DNA of 64,000 nucleotides from Pseudomonadota bacterium (GTDB lineage: Bacteria > Pseudomonadota > Gammaproteobacteria > Steroidobacterales > Steroidobacteraceae): contig JBBCGI010000001.1 in NCBI GenBank assembly GCA_037200975.1, positions 62,001-126,000 of the forward strand, read 5' to 3'. Numbering within the stretch: position 1 is the stretch's first letter; each line of letters starts with the position of its first letter. Below, in pieces: positions 20,364 through 32,267 of the stretch. The notes under the pieces are model-generated. The model saw nothing but the letters and a program-made list of their open reading frames with translations. It did not search any database and was not told the DNA's origin. Position numbers and translations under genes: made by a program.

Positions 20364-23300
20364 ATGCCCACAACGCGGGGAAAAATCCGGTCCTTTGCCG
20401 ATCGCGCGCGCCTCGCGTTCGCGACGCTGGGCGCGATTTTTTCGGTCAGCGCCGCCGCCACGCCGCCGCTCAGTGTGCAGCGTTACAGCCTCGAAGAAGG
20501 TCTCTCGCAGCAGGCCGTCAATGCCATCGTGCAGGACAGCGAAGGCTTCATGTGGTTCGGTACCGAAGACGGCCTCAACCGCTTCGACGGTTACGAATTC
20601 CGCCAGTTGCGTCATGACCGCGGCGACGCGCACACATTGCCCAACGGCTGGGTCTCTTCGCTGGTCGCGACCGAGGACGGGTTGTGGATTTCAACCGACG
20701 GCGGTGGCGTCGTGTTCCGCAACGCGCAGACCGGCCAACTCGAGCAGCCCGCGCTGCTGCGCGACGCACCCGATCTGCAGCGCGTACGCATGCTGGCGCG
20801 CGACCGGTTCGGGCGGCTGTGGATCGCGTCGCGCGACGCCGGCGTCGCCATCTACGATCCGCGCAGCGGCGCGCTCGAGCGCCTGCGGCATTCGCTCACC
20901 GAGTCGCAATCGTTGTCCGACGATGCGGTGCACACCATCCTGCATCTGCGCAGCGGCGACACGCTGATCGGAACCGCGAGCGGACTCGATCGTTCCTCAG
21001 CCGCGAATCTCGATGTCACCCGACTCAGGCTGCCGCCCGAACTGAGCCCGCCGGGTGAGCCGCTGCGGGTGCGCGCGTTGGCCGAAGCGCCCGATGGCAT
21101 GGTCTGGGTCGGCACCGATGCGGGCCTCGGCCGTTACGACCCGCGCGGTGAGCGCTGGCGCGTATTTCGCGAGAACCGGACCAGCCCGACCGGCCTGCCA
21201 GGCAACCGCGTGCAGGCATTACTCTTCGACAGCCAGGGACGCCTGTGGATCGGATTGATCGAAGGACTCGCCTGGTTCGACTCAGCGACGGAAACCTTCG
21301 CGACTTACCACCGCGACGACGCCGAGCTCAGGTCGCTGCCCGACGATTACATCGTCTCGCTGTTCGAGGATCGCGGTGGCAGCCTGTGGATAGGCACCAA
21401 GACCGGCGGACTCGCGAAGTGGAATCCGCGCACCTGGTCGTTCGGCCACTTCCGCGCCAGCTCCGACGAAGGATTCACCGACCGCAACATCACCTCGTTC
21501 GCCGAAGACAGGCTGGGCCGGCTGTGGATCGGCACGTTCGGCAGCGGCATCAACCTGCTCGACCGCCAAACCTCGCGGGTGACGCCGGTGCGCCACTCGA
21601 ACGCGCGCACGTCGCTGAGTGATGACCGCGTCATGGCCTTGCTCGAAGGCAGCGGCGGCGAGGTCTGGGTCGGCACGATGGGCGGCGGCCTCAATCGTTT
21701 CGATGCGCAGACCTTGAAGGCCGAAGTGTTTGAGCACGACCCCGGCGTTCCCACGTCGCTCGCCGCTGCAGGCGTCATGAGCCTGATCGAGGTCGACAGA
21801 CAGGTGTGGGTGGGGACATTCGGCGGCGGCATCTCGCGCTTCGATGCGCGCACGCGCCGCTTCGACAGCCTGCGGCCCGGCCCCGAGGATGGCTTGCACC
21901 TGTCGAACGGCCGCATCACGGCGCTGGCCCGCGATCGCAGCGGTCACGTGTGGATAGGCACGGATGGCGGCGGTCTCAATGTCTGGGATCACAAGACCCG
22001 CCGGCTCTACTACTACAAGCGCGACGCCCGGCAACTCGACTCGCTGAGCGCCGACTCCATCTATTCGATCCTGGTCGACGACGCGGGCAACGTCTGGATC
22101 GGCACGCGCGGCGGCGGCCTCGATCGCGTGCTCGATCCGGCGGAAGGCCCGGCCGACCTGCGTTTCGTCAATTTCTCCGAATCGCAGGGGCTGCCTAACA
22201 ACACCGTCTACGGGTTGCGGGCCGACGGCACCGGCAACATCTGGATCAGCACCAACTTCGGCCTGGCGCGCCTCGATCCGCGCAGCGGCGCGATCCAGCG
22301 TTTTCACCGGCTGCACGGCCTGCAAGGCGAGGAATTCAACTTCGGCGCGCACTACCGCGATCGCAGCGGCAAGCTGTTCTTCGGCGGTGCGGCCGGCTTC
22401 AACGCCTTCTACCCGGAAGTGCTCGAGTTCAACGAGCGCCCGCCTCGCGTCGTATTGACCCAGCTCCTCAAGCTCAATGCCCCCGGCGTCGCCGGCATTC
22501 CCGAGGAGCGCATCGGGCGGCTGACGCTGGGTCACAAGGAAGACGTCGTCACGCTCAAGTTCGCGGCGCTCGACTACGCCGACCCGAAGGCGAACCGCTA
22601 CGAATACAAGCTCGATGGCTTCGACGACGACTGGGTACACGCCGACGAACGGCGTGCCGCCACCTATACCAACCTGCCCGGCGGCAAGTACGTGTTCCGC
22701 GTGCGCGCCAGCAACAGCGACGGCGTGTGGAGCACCGAGGACCTCGCGCTGCCGATCGACGTGTCGCCATCACCCTGGGCATCGCTGTGGGCATACGCGG
22801 GTTATACGGCCATCGCCGCGCTGCTGTTGCTGGCCGTGTGGTATGGACAACAGCGCCGCATCGCAGGTGCGGCCGACCAGCGCCTGGAGCTCGAGCAGCA
22901 GGTCAGTGATCGCACCTACGAATTGGCCGAACGCAATCGCGAGCTCGAAGAAGCCAACCGCAAACTCGAGATGGCGAGTTCCACCGACACACTCACCGGG
23001 CTTGGCAACCGCCGCTACCTGATGGAGCAGTTCCCGCGCCTGCTCAAGGAAAAACGCGTGGATCACGGCCTCGCCATCATGATCATCGATCTCGATGCGC
23101 TCAAACCCATCAACGACCAGTACGGTCACGCCGCCGGCGACGAAGTGATCGTGGAGATCGCGAAGACGCTGCGCCAGGCCATCCGTCCCGAGGACATCCT
23201 GGTGCGCTGGGGCGGCGATGAATTCGTGATCGTCGCGCAGGCGCAGCACGTCGAACAAACCACCATGCTGGCCGAACGCGTGCGCGAACGGATCGCCAAG

Positions 23301-23648
23301 CTGAAATGCGTGTTGCCGCGCGGCGCCGTGGTACGCACCAGCTGCTCGATCGGCTTCACCTGCCTGCCCTTCGTGCCCGGCAAACCCGACGCGGTCAGCT
23401 GGGAGCATGCGATCAAGATCGCCGACCTCGCCCTGTATCGCGCCAAGCGCGGCCGCAATGCCTGGCGCGGCTGGTTCGGCACCGAGTTGATCGCCGGGCT
23501 GCAGTCGGCCGGACTGCACTCAGTCATAGCGGCGGTGGAATCGAACGTGGACGGCTTGATCGCCAGTGGCGCGATCATCGAACAATCATCGACGCGCGGC
23601 AGCGACGACACCGTCAATGCGCTGCGCGTCCTGCGCGAAGTGCGTTGA
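20364..23648 (+). CDS. Sensor diguanylate cyclase with two-component-regulator propeller, Y_Y_Y domain and GGDEF
   Basis: Membrane sensor of 1094 residues. A signal peptide (about 1-32, ending VSAAA) is followed by a long periplasmic beta-propeller built from repeated reg_prop units; the hallmark strand (L/V)WIG or VWVG followed by T..GG recurs through about residues 45-660. Next come a Y_Y_Y domain (ANRYEYKLDGFDDDWVHA, about 735-800), one TM (about 807-830), a coiled coil and a GGDEF domain. The cyclase has DTLTGLGNRRYLM, DLDALKPINDQYGHAAGDE and an intact GGDEF near residue 950, with the product-inhibition site RPED five residues before it. It should therefore make c-di-GMP and be feedback inhibited. 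The propeller resembles hybrid BT-type sensors, here wired to c-di-GMP. The next gene, 11 bases away, is an EAL protein. Confidence 0.93.
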   Translation: MPTTRGKIRSFADRARLAFATLGAIFSVSAAATPPLSVQRYSLEEGLSQQAVNAIVQDSEGFMWFGTEDGLNRFDGYEFRQLRHDRGDAHTLPNGWVSSLVATEDGLWISTDGGGVVFRNAQTGQLEQPALLRDAPDLQRVRMLARDRFGRLWIASRDAGVAIYDPRSGALERLRHSLTESQSLSDDAVHTILHLRSGDTLIGTASGLDRSSAANLDVTRLRLPPELSPPGEPLRVRALAEAPDGMVWVGTDAGLGRYDPRGERWRVFRENRTSPTGLPGNRVQALLFDSQGRLWIGLIEGLAWFDSATETFATYHRDDAELRSLPDDYIVSLFEDRGGSLWIGTKTGGLAKWNPRTWSFGHFRASSDEGFTDRNITSFAEDRLGRLWIGTFGSGINLLDRQTSRVTPVRHSNARTSLSDDRVMALLEGSGGEVWVGTMGGGLNRFDAQTLKAEVFEHDPGVPTSLAAAGVMSLIEVDRQVWVGTFGGGISRFDARTRRFDSLRPGPEDGLHLSNGRITALARDRSGHVWIGTDGGGLNVWDHKTRRLYYYKRDARQLDSLSADSIYSILVDDAGNVWIGTRGGGLDRVLDPAEGPADLRFVNFSESQGLPNNTVYGLRADGTGNIWISTNFGLARLDPRSGAIQRFHRLHGLQGEEFNFGAHYRDRSGKLFFGGAAGFNAFYPEVLEFNERPPRVVLTQLLKLNAPGVAGIPEERIGRLTLGHKEDVVTLKFAALDYADPKANRYEYKLDGFDDDWVHADERRAATYTNLPGGKYVFRVRASNSDGVWSTEDLALPIDVSPSPWASLWAYAGYTAIAALLLLAVWYGQQRRIAGAADQRLELEQQVSDRTYELAERNRELEEANRKLEMASSTDTLTGLGNRRYLMEQFPRLLKEKRVDHGLAIMIIDLDALKPINDQYGHAAGDEVIVEIAKTLRQAIRPEDILVRWGGDEFVIVAQAQHVEQTTMLAERVRERIAKLKCVLPRGAVVRTSCSIGFTCLPFVPGKPDAVSWEHAIKIADLALYRAKRGRNAWRGWFGTELIAGLQSAGLHSVIAAVESNVDGLIASGAIIEQSSTRGSDDTVNALRVLREVR

Positions 23649-23659
23649 CCGAGGCAGGC

Positions 23660-25357
23660 ATGGACAGCGACATCGCACGATCTCTTCCCGACCTCGCGCT
23701 CATCGTGCGCCGCGACGGCGTCATCCTTTCCTGCGTCGGCGGCAACGCGGTGCGCGGGCTGCATGCGCCGGAAGATGAAATCCCGGGGCGCAACGTCGCC
23801 GACCTGTTCCCCGAATCCATCGCCAGCCACCTGTTGCAGACCGTGCGCCGCATCCTCAAGACGCGCAAGCCCGCGCAGCAGCGCTACCAGGAAGGCGAGC
23901 TCGCGCTCGAGATGCGCTTCCAGGTGCAGGGCTTCGACCGCGCGCTGGTCGTCTGCCGCGACCTCGGCGCCGGGGTCTCCTCGAATGACTCGGGCCTCTA
24001 TCCCAGTGCCGATGGCAGTGCCGGTGGCGAAACCGCAGGCGTCATGCTTGCGCACCGCGACGGCTTGGAAAAATCGCTGCGCATGGCGCTCGACATGGCC
24101 GCGTTGCGCGAAGACACCGTCGGCGTCGTGCTGATTCACATCGGCGGCTACGCGACCTATCAACATGTGTTCGACTCCGCGCTGGCCAATCGGCTGCTCG
24201 AATCCGCCGTGAGGGTGATCGCGGAAAACCTGCCCGAAGCGCGTTCGAGCCTGCCGCGCGTGGCGCGTATCTCGGATGACGTGATCGGCGTGGTGCTCAG
24301 CGACATCCGCTCGCGCGCGGACGCCGATGTCGCCGTGGAAACCATCATCAAGTCTTTGCAGCACCCCGTCTATATCGACGGCCAGGTGTTCCAGCTCGCG
24401 CCCCAGGCGGGTGTCACGCTCTCCGGCACCGATGGCGACCGGGCCATCGAACTGATCGAACGCGCACTGACCACGCTCGACTCGGGCCGCCGCGCCGGCG
24501 CGGACCGCGCCATCACCTTCTATTCGGACACGTTGCGCCTGGCGTCGCTCACGCGCCTCGACTGGAGCCAGGAACTCACGCGGGCGATCGAGAAGGACGA
24601 ACTCGAGCTGCACTATCAGCCGCGGTATCTGCTCGCGACCCGCGAGATCGTCGCGGTGGAAGCCTTCCTGCGTTGGCCGCACAAGATACGAGGCATGGTG
24701 CCCACCTCCGAATTCCTGCCGATCGCCGAGCTCTCCGGTCTTTCGGTGCAGCTCGGCCGCTGGGTGCTGCGCCGCGCCTGCCGCGATCTCGCTACACTTT
24801 CCGAGCGCGGCTTCCCGAAGCTGCGCCTGTCGGTGAACGTCGGCCGTCAGTACCTGTCCGCCGAGAGCCTCGCCGAGGACGTCGCCAATTCCGCCAGGGA
24901 AGCCGGCATCGAACCCGCGCAGCTCGATCTCGAGATCACCGAACAGATGTTGTCGACCGGCCGCAATGGCTTGGCGGCGCTGCACCAGTTGCGCGGCCAG
25001 GGCGTGCGCGTGTTGATCGACGATTTCGGCACCGGCTACGTGTCGCTCGGCAAGCTGCGCAATTCGCCACTCGACGGCATCATGATCGACCGCTCGTTCG
25101 TCGAGGAGGTCGGCCACGATCACGAGGCGCGTGCGGTGTGCCGCGCGGCGATCGCACTAGGCCTCGCCTTCGGTCTGCGCGTCGTCGCCGAAGGCATCGA
25201 GACGGAAGCGCAGGCGCAATTCCTGGTCGCCGAGCAGTGCCACGAAGGTCAGGGGCACCTGTTCTGCGCCGCGACGCCGCTCGCGAGCTTGTTGGACAGA
25301 ATATTGCCGGGCGCGAAGGATGCGCCGGGTTCTGTCACACGCGCGGCCGCGCGCTGA
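23660..25357 (+). CDS. PAS / degenerate GGDEF / EAL-domain protein
   Basis: Soluble c-di-GMP protein of 565 residues, starting MDSDIARSLPDLALIVRR; its coding sequence begins 11 bases after the diguanylate cyclase gene. An N-terminal PAS-like domain (about 8-105) is followed by a GGDEF-family domain in which the signature is replaced (ARISDDVIGVVL), so it cannot be a cyclase. The EAL domain keeps Glu334 (VEAFLRW), Asn393 (LSVNVGRQ), the Glu of LDLEITEQ, Asp454/Asp455 (IDDFGTGY), and Glu in VAEGIETEA. The lysine normally present in the (L/I)KIDRSF motif is Met475 (IMIDRSFV). That lysine is needed for hydrolysis in studied EAL enzymes, so this may be a c-di-GMP binding effector or a weak phosphodiesterase. 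Confidence 0.9.
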   Translation: MDSDIARSLPDLALIVRRDGVILSCVGGNAVRGLHAPEDEIPGRNVADLFPESIASHLLQTVRRILKTRKPAQQRYQEGELALEMRFQVQGFDRALVVCRDLGAGVSSNDSGLYPSADGSAGGETAGVMLAHRDGLEKSLRMALDMAALREDTVGVVLIHIGGYATYQHVFDSALANRLLESAVRVIAENLPEARSSLPRVARISDDVIGVVLSDIRSRADADVAVETIIKSLQHPVYIDGQVFQLAPQAGVTLSGTDGDRAIELIERALTTLDSGRRAGADRAITFYSDTLRLASLTRLDWSQELTRAIEKDELELHYQPRYLLATREIVAVEAFLRWPHKIRGMVPTSEFLPIAELSGLSVQLGRWVLRRACRDLATLSERGFPKLRLSVNVGRQYLSAESLAEDVANSAREAGIEPAQLDLEITEQMLSTGRNGLAALHQLRGQGVRVLIDDFGTGYVSLGKLRNSPLDGIMIDRSFVEEVGHDHEARAVCRAAIALGLAFGLRVVAEGIETEAQAQFLVAEQCHEGQGHLFCAATPLASLLDRILPGAKDAPGSVTRAAAR

Positions 25358-25510: not shown

Positions 25511-27649
25511 ATGATGGCAGGTGTTCGCAAGACAGCCGCTCGAGTCCTGGGAGCGGTTCCCCTGGTGTTGCTGGTGTCGTGCTCCGCGGCGCCTTCCAGC
25601 ACTCCGGCGGCGGGCGCAAACCCCGCCAGCGCGAAGCACAGCTACATCGTCGAAGCCGTCGACACCGACACTGCGGCGCAGGCCGTCGTGGCCGCTGGAG
25701 GCGAAGTCGTTTCGCGCCTCGGCGTCATCGATGCGGTGGAAGCCAGCCTCTCGGACGCCGAACACGCAACGGTGCTCAAAGCGGAGGGTATCAAGCAGAT
25801 CACCACCAACGACGTCGTCACGACGCAGGCCGCGGCGGGGGTACGCGACAACTTCGAAACCAGCTCGCTGGCCAACAACGACGGCACGCATCGCTGGTAC
25901 GGCGACTGGGTCGAGCAGAACGACAACAACTCTCCTTACGACGGCAGGATTTCGATCGGCTGGACGGACAAGAACGGCAAACGGCTCATTCTCTCGGGGA
26001 GTGCGTCCATCTACCGCCGCGCGGCGACGCCGTCGAGCTCGCCTGCCGTGACGCTCAAACTCAAGAGCGCGCGTTTCGGCCTCCGGGCCGGCGAATACGT
26101 TTCCGTGCAGGCGAGCGGCAATGGCGGCGCGAGCTGGACGGAGGTCGGCCGCTTCGCAGGCCCCGCCAGCGACTCCGCATTCATCAGCCACAGCTACAAC
26201 ATCACCGCGTTTCGCGGCCGCAATACCGCGGTGCGTTTCGCCGCATCGATGAACGGCGCGTTCGGCTCCGACTACGTGAGCATCGACGATGTGGAAATCG
26301 CCTACACCACCACGTTCGACGCGGGCGATCCTGAACCCGTCGATGTGAACGCGCGCGACCTGCACAACGCGGGGCTGCGCGGCCGGGATGTGGGCGTCGC
26401 GATCATCGACACCGGCTACTGGAAACTCGATTCGCTCGACCGCGATTCGGCCGGCAACCCGCGCGTCGCCGCGCAGTACGACGCGATCCGCGGCGTGCTC
26501 GACACTTCGTGGTCCTCGATCTCGACCGATACCACCGGTCACGGCACCCACGTCACCAGCCTCATCGCCAGCAGCCGCAGGGACGGCGCCAACCGTTACT
26601 TCGGTGTCGCGCCGGATGCGCGCATCGTTTCGGTGAAGGCGTTCGGCGAGGACGGCACCAGCACCTACGCCACGGTGATCCGCGGCATCGACTGGGTGAT
26701 CACCAACAAGAATTCTTTCGGGATCAAGGTACTGAATTTATCGCTAGGGGCCCCGGCGCGTTCGCGCTATTGGGACGATCCGCTTAATAAAGCCGTGATG
26801 CGCGCGTGGCAATCCGGCATTGTCGTAGTCGTGTCAGCGGGCAATAGCGGACCGCTGCCGCAGACCGTGGGCGTACCGGGAAATGTCCCCTACGTCATCA
26901 CGGTCGGCGCGATGACCGACAGCTACACCGATTCGGCGCGGGACGATCGTCTCGCCTCCTTTTCCTCGACGGGGCCTACCTACGAGGGCTTCGTGAAACC
27001 CGACCTCGTTGCACCGGGTGGCCATGTGTGGGGCTTCATGGCGACCTACATGAAGATCGCCGTCGACCATCCGACTTATATGAACAGCGCGGATTTCTTC
27101 ACCATGTCCGGCACGTCGCAGGCGGCCGCTGCCGTGTCGGGGGTTGCCGCGCTCGTGATCGCGCAGAATCCGGGGCTCACTCCCGATCAGGTGAAGTGCC
27201 GCATCATCGCGAGCGGCCGGCCGGCGGTGAAACTCAACGGTTCGCTCGCCTACAGCGTGCTGCAGCAGGGCACGGGGCTCGTCGACGCCAGGGCTGCCGT
27301 CTACGGCACGAACAATCATTGCGCCAACGTCGGTTTGAATATCGACGCGGACCTGAGCGGCGCGCAACATTTCAAGGGCCGCGTCACGCAGACCGCGGAT
27401 GGCACATTCAAGGTGACGAGCCCCAACGGCTTTCTCTGGGACCAGGGTTATCTGTGGGACCAGGGGTACCTGTGGAGCCAGGGCTATCTGTGGCCGCAGG
27501 GATACCTGTGGCCACAAGGCTTCCTCTGGAGCCAGGCGCAAAACTACAGCGCCGACATCAAGTGGACCGATGGCTATCCGAGCGTGATCGGCACGAGCGT
27601 CGGAACCGCGGCCTCGATGTCCGTGAACAGCTGGGTTGCTCCGGAGTAA
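25511..27649 (+). CDS. Subtilisin-like S8 serine peptidase, lipoprotein with YLWxQG repeats
   Basis: Exported peptidase of 712 residues. The signal peptide ends in a lipobox (LVSC, Cys24). Residues 43-105 look like an inhibitor I9 propeptide. An inserted beta-rich domain (about 112-268, beginning DNFETSSLANNDGTHRWYGD) precedes the catalytic domain. The catalytic triad is Asp300 (IIDTGY), His344 (TGHGTHV) and Ser536 (SGTSQAAA), with oxyanion Asn445 (SAGNSG). All are intact, so it should be active. After the catalytic domain, residues 641-674 hold six tandem units of the form (F/Y)LWxQG with x = D, D, S, P, P, S, followed by a short tail. No secretion-system anchor motif was recognised. The gene ends 2 bases before inverted repeat B. 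Confidence 0.93.
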   Translation: MMAGVRKTAARVLGAVPLVLLVSCSAAPSSTPAAGANPASAKHSYIVEAVDTDTAAQAVVAAGGEVVSRLGVIDAVEASLSDAEHATVLKAEGIKQITTNDVVTTQAAAGVRDNFETSSLANNDGTHRWYGDWVEQNDNNSPYDGRISIGWTDKNGKRLILSGSASIYRRAATPSSSPAVTLKLKSARFGLRAGEYVSVQASGNGGASWTEVGRFAGPASDSAFISHSYNITAFRGRNTAVRFAASMNGAFGSDYVSIDDVEIAYTTTFDAGDPEPVDVNARDLHNAGLRGRDVGVAIIDTGYWKLDSLDRDSAGNPRVAAQYDAIRGVLDTSWSSISTDTTGHGTHVTSLIASSRRDGANRYFGVAPDARIVSVKAFGEDGTSTYATVIRGIDWVITNKNSFGIKVLNLSLGAPARSRYWDDPLNKAVMRAWQSGIVVVVSAGNSGPLPQTVGVPGNVPYVITVGAMTDSYTDSARDDRLASFSSTGPTYEGFVKPDLVAPGGHVWGFMATYMKIAVDHPTYMNSADFFTMSGTSQAAAAVSGVAALVIAQNPGLTPDQVKCRIIASGRPAVKLNGSLAYSVLQQGTGLVDARAAVYGTNNHCANVGLNIDADLSGAQHFKGRVTQTADGTFKVTSPNGFLWDQGYLWDQGYLWSQGYLWPQGYLWPQGFLWSQAQNYSADIKWTDGYPSVIGTSVGTAASMSVNSWVAPE
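27431..27534 (+). repeat. In-frame tandem repeat encoding six (F/Y)LWxQG units
   Basis: Six 18-base units such as TATCTGTGGGACCAGGG and TACCTGTGGAGCCAGGG encode YLWDQG/YLWSQG/YLWPQG. Codon choices differ between units (TAT/TAC, GGT/GGG/GGC/GGA), so the repeat is conserved as protein, not just recently duplicated DNA. Confidence 0.95.
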
Positions 27650-27651
27650 GC

Positions 27652-27770
27652 AAGTGGTGCCGGGGTGCAATTCTCGTAATTGATCAAGCGTACGTGCACG
27701 TAGTGACGCCGACTCAATTACGAGAATTGCACCCCGGCACCACTTCCGCGGCACCACTTCCGGCACCACT
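27652..27770. repeat. Perfect inverted repeat, 32-bp arms (element B) with tandem half-units
   Basis: Left arm 27652-27683 and right arm 27714-27745 are exact reverse complements around a 30-base loop. The arm starts AAGTGGTGCCGGGGTGC and continues AATTCTCGTAATTGA. Two additional GGCACCACT(T) units follow at 27750-27759 and 27762-27770, the last touching the kynA stop codon. Outer ends match the A elements (GGTGCCGGG), but the inner sequence is different. It lies between the convergent peptidase and kynA genes. Confidence 0.97.
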
Positions 27771-28623
27771 CACATCGACGTGCGCACCTGCCACAGCTCC
27801 GGGAAGAACTTGAGCTCCAGCGCCTTCGCCAGATACGAAACACCGCCGGTACCGCCGGTACCCGGCTTGTAGCCGATCACGCGTTCGACGGTTTTCAGAT
27901 GATGAAACCGCCACAGCTGGAATTTCTGGTCGAGATCGACGAGCCGCTCGGCCATCTCGTACAGGTCCCAGTCCTTCTCCGCGTTGTGATACACGCCGAG
28001 CCAGGCCGCCGTGACCGCCTTCGACGGCGTGTAAGGCTCGGAGAAATCGCGTTCGATCAATTCCTCGGGAATGCCGTAACCGCGGCGTGACAGCAGGCGC
28101 AACACTTCGTCGTAGATGGACGGCGCATTCAACGCGCGTTCCAGCTTTTCGTAGCCGGCGGCGTCGCGCTTGTGGACCGCGATCACGTCGCGGTTCTTGT
28201 TGCCGAGCTGAAATTCCAGCACCCGGTACTGCAACGACTGGAATCCGGAGGACCGCCCGAGCGTATTGCGAAACGACGAATACTCGAACGGCGTCAAGGT
28301 CGACAACACGCTCCACGCCCCTAACAACTCCTCCTGCAGCCGCGAGATGCGCGCCAGCATCTTGAACGACGGATCGAGGTTGTCGCGCCGCACGCATTCG
28401 AACACATGCGACAATTCGTGCAGGAACAGCCGCATCCACAGCTCCGACACCTGGTGCACGACGATGAACAACATCTCGTCCTGCTCGATGGAATTCGGTT
28501 TCTGCGCGTCGAGCAGCTTGTCGAGCTGCAGGTATTCGCCATAGGACTGCGACGTGCCGAGGTCCCAATGGACGCCCTCGGTCTTGAGATCCACACGGTG
28601 CGGAATTTCTTTGTCTTCGTTCG

Positions 28624-28627
<4 letters not shown>
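27770..28627 (-). CDS. kynA: Tryptophan 2,3-dioxygenase
   Basis: Heme dioxygenase of 285 residues that opens the indole ring of tryptophan to N-formylkynurenine, the first step of the kynurenine route. Family segments: SYGEYLQLDKLLDAQKP, the substrate region DEMLFIVVHQVSELWMRL, FEYSSFRNTLGRSSGFQS and the heme-proximal histidine in QLWRFHHLKTVERVIG, then the loop GTGGTGGVSYL. Length matches bacterial TDO. ATG 28627 overlaps the stop of the ygjP-like gene (ATGA). No kynureninase or kynurenine formamidase gene is nearby. Its stop codon overlaps the terminal unit of element B. Confidence 0.96.

Positions 28628-32267
<3,640 letters not shown>

Follow-up and report, generated by a model that had tools for sequence, protein, structure and literature searches.

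The window analysed here is a stretch of 64,000 nucleotides from a bacterium of the family Steroidobacteraceae. Three of its genes follow one another on the same strand: a propeller-sensor diguanylate cyclase, an EAL gene, and a gene for an S8 subtilase that ends in a tail of tryptophan hexads. The features of this region, in window coordinates, are:

20364..23648 (+), neighbouring sensor of 1094 amino acids with Reg_prop beta-propeller, Y_Y_Y and GGDEF domains (Pfam)
23306..25357 (+), neighbouring EAL protein with a weak GGDEF match, listed ORF of 683 amino acids (Pfam)
25511..27649 (+), S8 subtilase with tryptophan-hexad tail, 712 amino acids; the coordinates take in the stop codon
25511..25588 (+), putative N-terminal export signal, lipobox-like LVSC-S (residues 1-26), read by eye from the sequence
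25637..25825 (+), folded propeptide-like domain (residues 43-105), AlphaFold2 pLDDT 95-98 over residues 41-100
25838..26335 (+), beta-rich insert (residues 110-275) leading from the propeptide to the catalytic domain, from AlphaFold2; no family match
26381..27214 (+), catalytic S8 domain with D300, H344, N445 and S536, from Pfam and alignment
27311..27430 (+), conserved linker (residues 601-640, including DLSGAQHFKG and DGTFKV), from two alignments of relatives
27431..27538 (+), six hexads (F/Y)LWxQ(G/A) (residues 641-676), from TRF and reading of the sequence
27617..27646 (+), C-terminal end MSVNSWVAPE; an end of the type W-[VAN]-x-x-[EQLD] occurs in 31 of 70 tailed proteins

With 184.7 bits for the PF07494 repeats, 71.0 for PF07495 and 133.7 for GGDEF, the first gene product scores as a Reg_prop/Y_Y_Y sensor. 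Since the EAL ORF overlaps that of the sensor, its real start is probably further downstream. The sensor genes adjoining the S8 gene were absent from an earlier, sequence-only reading of this DNA. Directly behind the S8 gene lies a palindromic element (27654-27743) with two identical 29-base arms in opposite orientation. The first 19 bases of the arm, with up to two mismatches, have 43 forward and 44 reverse copies in the genome, many paired about 71 bases apart, and a Y1 transposase-type ORF sits between two arms at G000:C1:1129456; we take the palindrome and this ORF to be a REPIN/RAYT-like system. The convergent neighbour at 27770-28705 (-) is presumably a tryptophan 2,3-dioxygenase, and a similar ORF also follows the S8 gene in genomes G001 and G003.

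The Pfam family Peptidase_S8 (PF00082) matches residues 291-568 of the window protein at 171.4 bits against a cut-off of 21.8 (E 3.5e-50). The triad D300/H344/S536 and the oxyanion residue N445 are intact, and among 28 aligned rows D300, H344, N445 and S536 are invariant wherever the column is present (24, 24, 25 and 28 rows, respectively). Judged by the Pfam score and the triad, the protein is a member of the peptidase S8 family and would be expected to act as a protease. Its best NCBIfam model is the type VII secretion mycosin TIGR03921, in which it is not a member, 137.2 bits lying far below the curated cut-off of 278.75. An AlphaFold2 run on the window protein and 27 relatives, read in ten-residue blocks, returned pLDDT values of 67-98 for the catalytic domain, mostly above 80, and 47-88 for the insert of the window protein. 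The propeptide-like domain is presumably inhibitor I9-like, an assignment that does not come from a Pfam match. Pfam gives nothing for the insert at residues 110-275, and its one PDB match is meaningless; judging from sequence, the stretch 25838-26335 may be a mobile domain. Stretches resembling it were seen by eye elsewhere in relatives: in L057, for instance, one follows the S8 domain, and L132 has several copies.

The hexads read, in order and in frame, FLWDQG, YLWDQG, YLWSQG, YLWPQG, YLWPQG and FLWSQA, and are followed by a 36-residue end that closes in MSVNSWVAPE. TRF detects the array independently at 27433-27511 with a period of 18. Among the 15 pairs of units, pS is 0.71 and pN 0.19; glutamine is written CAG five times and CAA once, glycine is spelled four ways and tyrosine two. 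The earlier reading had proposed a six-unit tandem repeat at the subtilase C-terminus, with codons that vary under selection for a constant peptide. Both points are borne out, the array ending at 27538, four bases past the 27534 given there. The pattern extends to other tailed S8 proteins: over 575 units from 68 such proteins with a run of at least four, the median pS is 0.54 and the median pN 0.13, and pS exceeds pN in 66 of the 68. Since the units differ mainly at silent sites, selection acts on the peptide.

The orthologue in the same-genus genome G001 is 86% identical in the repeats, 83% in the catalytic domain and 61% in the post-repeat end. Against G003 the repeats are 58% identical and the unit aligned to the first reads PLNEQG; YLW is kept, polar positions change, and the six YLW units there are shifted by one. 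Repeat length among the orthologues found is not random, nor is the tail absent: six YLW-type units occur in the window and in both same-genus orthologues (G001, G003) and seven in the nearest same-family one (G021). A third same-genus genome, G002 (67% complete), gave no match of orthologue rank in the protein search. Over the 575 units, position 1 is Y (0.78) or F (0.14), position 2 is L (0.52), T (0.23) or A (0.09), position 4 is S (0.62), position 5 is D (0.51), Q (0.19) or N (0.14), and position 6 is G (0.71), A (0.17) or S (0.08), while position 3 is W by construction of the unit definition. The consensus in the clade is Y-(L/T)-W-S-(D/Q/N)-G. Longest runs span 2-13 units in the clade, with two in L059 and three in L073, and 4-13 in the 68-protein set, which demanded four. 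Half of the W-to-W spacings beyond the longest runs (68 of 136) are divisible by six, and units without W, such as GVNANG, GVNSNG and SVDANG, stand amid W units, so the six-residue register is often held beyond the tryptophans.

A search with the window protein in 59 genomes, its own included, found a match at E <= 0.001 in 32. All 39 matches at E <= 1.5e-40, the window's own counted, end in W-hexads when their tails are read by eye, and four of these tails are irregular (L054, L056, L059 and L073). For a tree of tailed and untailed S8 domains, 116 S8 ORFs less seven with domains shorter than 180 amino acids left 109. All 65 tailed domains lie in a single branch of 66 rows (SH-aLRT 91). Its one remaining row, in L204, leaves its locus before any tail is readable, and the tail label changes twice on the tree against a shuffled mean of 34.6. 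The branch splits into subclades of 46 and 20 rows (SH-aLRT 99 each) that differ in linker and C-terminal end; D-D ends occur in 13 of 23 proteins of the 20-row subclade and its fragments. Since the named loci were recruited through the repeat, tail loss is readable from whole genomes alone. The 16 genomes searched for S8 domains were picked for carrying tails, and two of them, G043 and G056, have many near-identical genes in common; of the tail-less S8 domains of the 16 in this tree, none falls inside the tailed branch. On this sequence evidence the tail marks one distinct S8 clade, unnamed in the libraries searched. As side observations, G043 and G056 hold 17 and 25 S8 matches, and tailed S8 genes stand as tandem pairs in several lineages (L068, L069, L139, L140, L186).

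Neutral DNA slippage without a role could account for the number of units differing among proteins, yet it is contradicted by the sequences: besides the excess of pS over pN in 66 of 68 proteins, none of the 68 has a pS below 0.1, and the tail is present in every clade member of the tree with a readable end. We regard slippage as almost certainly the wrong explanation.

Tailed S8 proteins occur in Pseudomonadota, Acidobacteriota and Chloroflexota. Scanning a genome collection for a five-unit aromatic-x-W pattern matched at least 117 stretches, at least 26 of them in frame in an ORF with an S8 profile match; the script's ORFs run from stop to stop, and their starts are not gene starts. The remaining stretches among the 117 matches listed comprise 7 in long non-S8 ORFs, 71 only in ORFs of under 200 amino acids and 13 with no matching frame. 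Listed among the 26 are Steroidobacter gossypii, Woeseiaceae, Aliiglaciecola lipolytica, Competibacteraceae, Acidobacteriota and Chloroflexota. The repeat is commoner than chance would give: among 147 genomes of the window's order, 20 contain a four-unit aromatic-x-W DNA pattern and 2 contain its reversed control, those two being true matches as well. In at least three of the 20 (G347, G353, G394) the DNA hit reads as a different repeat. A bare TGG-every-18-bases pattern, run over 274 genomes of the class, was set aside, the listed matches being mostly 18-base DNA repeats in other frames. In a viral collection, none of the 120 among the matches listed had the repeat in an S8 ORF; plasmids gave S8 domains without whole-protein coverage and weak look-alikes of the repeat in three records. 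Two further observations concern aromatic repeats and domain content: L117 and L118 (Flavobacteriaceae) carry FGWNNG- or YGW-type repeats in ORFs unmatched by the S8 profile, and the bacterial tailed S8 protein at L066 2344-5412 matches the VHL beta domain PF01847 at residues 383-436 (33.5 bits against a cut-off of 21).

As to the structure of the tail, AlphaFold2 assigns residues 641-712 of the window protein pLDDT values of 23-35 with neither strand nor helix. A second AlphaFold run covered the end of L184, which has ten YVWSDG units, together with 18 relatives; the first unit reached about 44 and the rest 23-30, and no strand of three or more residues was predicted in the array. The alignments were shallow (28 and 19 rows), AlphaFold is weak on assemblies, and low confidence on repeats is weak evidence of disorder; the predictions thus support no stable fold and are compatible with folding on binding or in an assembly. 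A regular beta fold that would gather Y and W on the same face has nevertheless been weighed, whether a left-handed helix, a hairpin meander or a trp-zipper-like sheet whose turns are N-G/D-G. Such a fold would explain why the six-residue register is maintained through W-less units such as GVNANG and why position 2 is mainly hydrophobic or T and position 6 small. The left-handed beta-helix motif calls for an aliphatic residue each six positions and small residues at set places, and the hexads fit it loosely (L/T/A/V/I at position 2, G/A/S at position 6). That helix is not supported, however, there being no predicted helical beta coils and no Pfam match on the window tail. Against any beta fold stand the lack of a single strand in both runs, with pLDDT mostly 23-30, a made-up consensus that matched no PDB sequence, and tails without a Pfam match in the proteins scanned; a regular beta fold is therefore distinctly unlikely. 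Of the sequence-only interpretation as a whole, selection on the peptide stands, and the repeat does recur behind other S8 domains, as seen in the 65 tailed domains of one tree branch; its beta-solenoid strip is not supported, and the carbohydrate or peptidoglycan contact surface that it also suggested is a candidate role.

The window protein begins with an N-terminus that reads by eye as ...LVLLVSC-S, which makes a lipoprotein plausible. Of 55 tailed proteins whose N-terminus is complete, 4 matched a simple lipobox pattern, which missed the window's own owing to a proline. Few clade members thus have a lipobox, which makes the tail and lipid anchoring two separate matters, and a surface-retention tail, independent of lipidation, is possible. 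Export would be expected for all members of the clade.

An aromatic tail of low complexity could also drive self-assembly of the enzyme into active protease fibrils or condensates, to which we give little credence. The aromatic composition of the tail fits this idea, and Vpr, whose structure 8jmw is also a fold match, offers a precedent: it is an extracellular S8 peptidase that forms active fibrils (PMC10657474, as excerpted). Both would be S8 peptidases outside the cell; the excerpted account of Vpr makes no mention of its fibrils using a hexad-type tail (PMC10657474).

Turning to the gene setting, sensors of the kind found in the window lie beside tailed S8 genes elsewhere, with GGDEF or HisKA/HATPase/receiver output. 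In whole-genome domain hits from the 16 tailed genomes, Y_Y_Y was present at 4 kb or less from 12 of 40 tailed S8 domains, as against 2 of the 85 remaining S8 hits, which include short pieces and had ends read for 42 (p 1.7e-5). All 12 linked Y_Y_Y domains score over the cut-off and share the strand of the tailed S8, whereas the two controls are sub-threshold. One control (G050:C49) is a carboxypeptidase-regulatory-type protein rather than a propeller. The other (G043:C4) is a genuine Reg_prop-GGDEF gene that shares its strand with an untailed S8 2.1 kb away; an S9 peptidase gene on the opposite strand separates the two, the three genes standing together in L443 2693-7822. From this case, peptidase and propeller sensor may be neighbours beyond the tailed clade. 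A profile count over fetched loci agrees, with propellers 3 kb away or less for 13 of 40 tailed genes and 1 of 42 untailed ones (p 2.6e-4), or 11 of 38 and 1 of 42 without the irregular L059 and L073 (p 1.1e-3). The control left out L074 (contig end) and L388 (same gene as L069); L387, whose S8 domain was not detected by profile, enters no fetched-locus count, and the 40 do not include L076 and L078, in each of which a piece of tail at a contig end lies next to a propeller gene. For GGDEF, EAL or HK alone near S8 the counts are 10 of 40 against 7 of 42, 8 against 5, and 7 against 2, with no significant excess, so the link is to the propeller and not to c-di-GMP genes at large.

The linkage is partial. 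No propeller lies near 27 of the 40 tailed genes in the 16 genomes, and none was seen beside the tailed genes of Chloroflexota. Since most tailed genes lack a nearby propeller, the tail cannot exist solely for that partner. Among 30 named tailed ORFs, the profile script flagged a propeller for seven, one of which, L125, is discounted: the gene adjoining L125 at 2.5 kb encodes GGDEF plus a sigma-54 activator, another ORF there has no Pfam match, and it yields no evidence for Acidobacteriota. The 20 regions fetched around propellers not next to a tailed S8, some of them cut at contig ends, contained no S8 ORF; L431 probably represents one half of the G001 cassette, divided across contigs. A tree of propellers, from which L039 and L424 (under 500 amino acids) were left out, had 37 members. 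The 17 S8-linked ones lie outside a ten-row unlinked branch (81/99) without forming a single clade (8 changes, a value as low in 5 of 500 shuffles).

Where the two genes are paired, the sensor's beta-propeller ectodomain might bind the tail as a ligand or docking strip, such that a bound or clipped tail would report the state of the protease and the sensor would alter c-di-GMP level or phosphorylation. This is rather unlikely. The same-strand Y_Y_Y linkage argues for it, as does the fact that all 16 tailed genomes, against 6 of 43 others, score above the cut-off for Y_Y_Y, a difference that partly stems from the linkage. G031 and G039 likewise count in its favour, having a propeller-GGDEF and EAL pair without an adjoining S8 gene and a tailed S8 elsewhere in the genome. 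Output also swaps while S8 and propeller remain paired, the 17 linked propellers comprising 8 with GGDEF, 8 with HK and 1 truncated, and S8 and propeller distances are weakly correlated over 15 pairs (Mantel r 0.31, 151 of 5000 shuffles as high), consistent with slight co-divergence. Set against docking are the many tailed genes away from any propeller, the genome G053, where a related propeller and EAL gene occur and the tail was not found, and the untailed S8 of G043:C4, which likewise has its propeller-GGDEF gene. Taken further, tailed subtilase and propeller could form an undescribed trans-envelope signalling unit in which docking, or loss of the tail, sets a c-di-GMP or phosphorelay output and the output domain is exchangeable while the tail-propeller pair is kept; we judge this unlikely. 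Hexad position 2 is mostly T in five linked pairs, every one of them with HK output, and T predominates there in none of the eight GGDEF pairs, the degenerate L059 having one T of two; in these few related pairs there is a hint that T at position 2 goes with HK output.

Short head-to-tail units on a protease adjoining a sensor could also be a precursor, from which hexapeptide signals would be cut and then sensed by the propeller protein. The units differ within one protein, however, no cleavage site is evident, and a processed precursor would not need the conserved C-terminal end. Such a role is very improbable.

The reading we favour, tentatively and with a little less than even confidence, is that of an exported protease of a distinct S8 clade whose flexible, multivalent aromatic tail makes contacts and is sometimes coupled to a propeller sensor. 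The array would most likely form no stable domain alone and serve as a flexible tail of evenly spaced Y/W stickers. Beyond the cytoplasm, such a tail may hold the enzyme to the envelope, to matrix material, to substrate particles or to a protein partner. Part of the clade, the window's member included, has the gene in a same-strand cassette with a propeller sensor of GGDEF or HK output, sometimes with an EAL protein; proteolysis on the outer side of the membrane is thus probably coupled to a signalling switch on the inner side. A contact tail is the simplest role that fits a tail conserved, largely in register, peptide-selected, without a predicted fold and independent of both lipobox and propeller. 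Counting against the contact tail, the held register and the conserved C-terminal end exceed the needs of a generic sticky tail.

An odd tail has thus led to a recognisable protease clade in three phyla, with a sequence tag for finding its members. Part of the clade is tied to one type of propeller sensor, and to our knowledge the signals of such sensors outside Bacteroidota are mostly unknown; if tail and propeller interact, the tail would offer a direct handle on what these propellers sense. A search of the open-licence literature with narrow terms found no description of the tail family or of the cassette.

Compared with known systems, the catalytic part of the window protein is ordinary S8. 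It has the catalytic domain, triad and propeptide in common with the PF00082 subtilisins, of which the nearest solved are Tk-SP (3afg) and pro-subtilisin E (3whi). Tk-SP has a C-terminal domain of its own, and we know of no tryptophan-hexad tail among these subtilisins. For the gene setting, the comparison is with LapD/LapG and YfiBNR, in which a periplasmic protein, a protease in the case of LapG, is coupled to c-di-GMP. Those systems are built from other protein families, whereas the one described here pairs a propeller sensor with an S8 protease.
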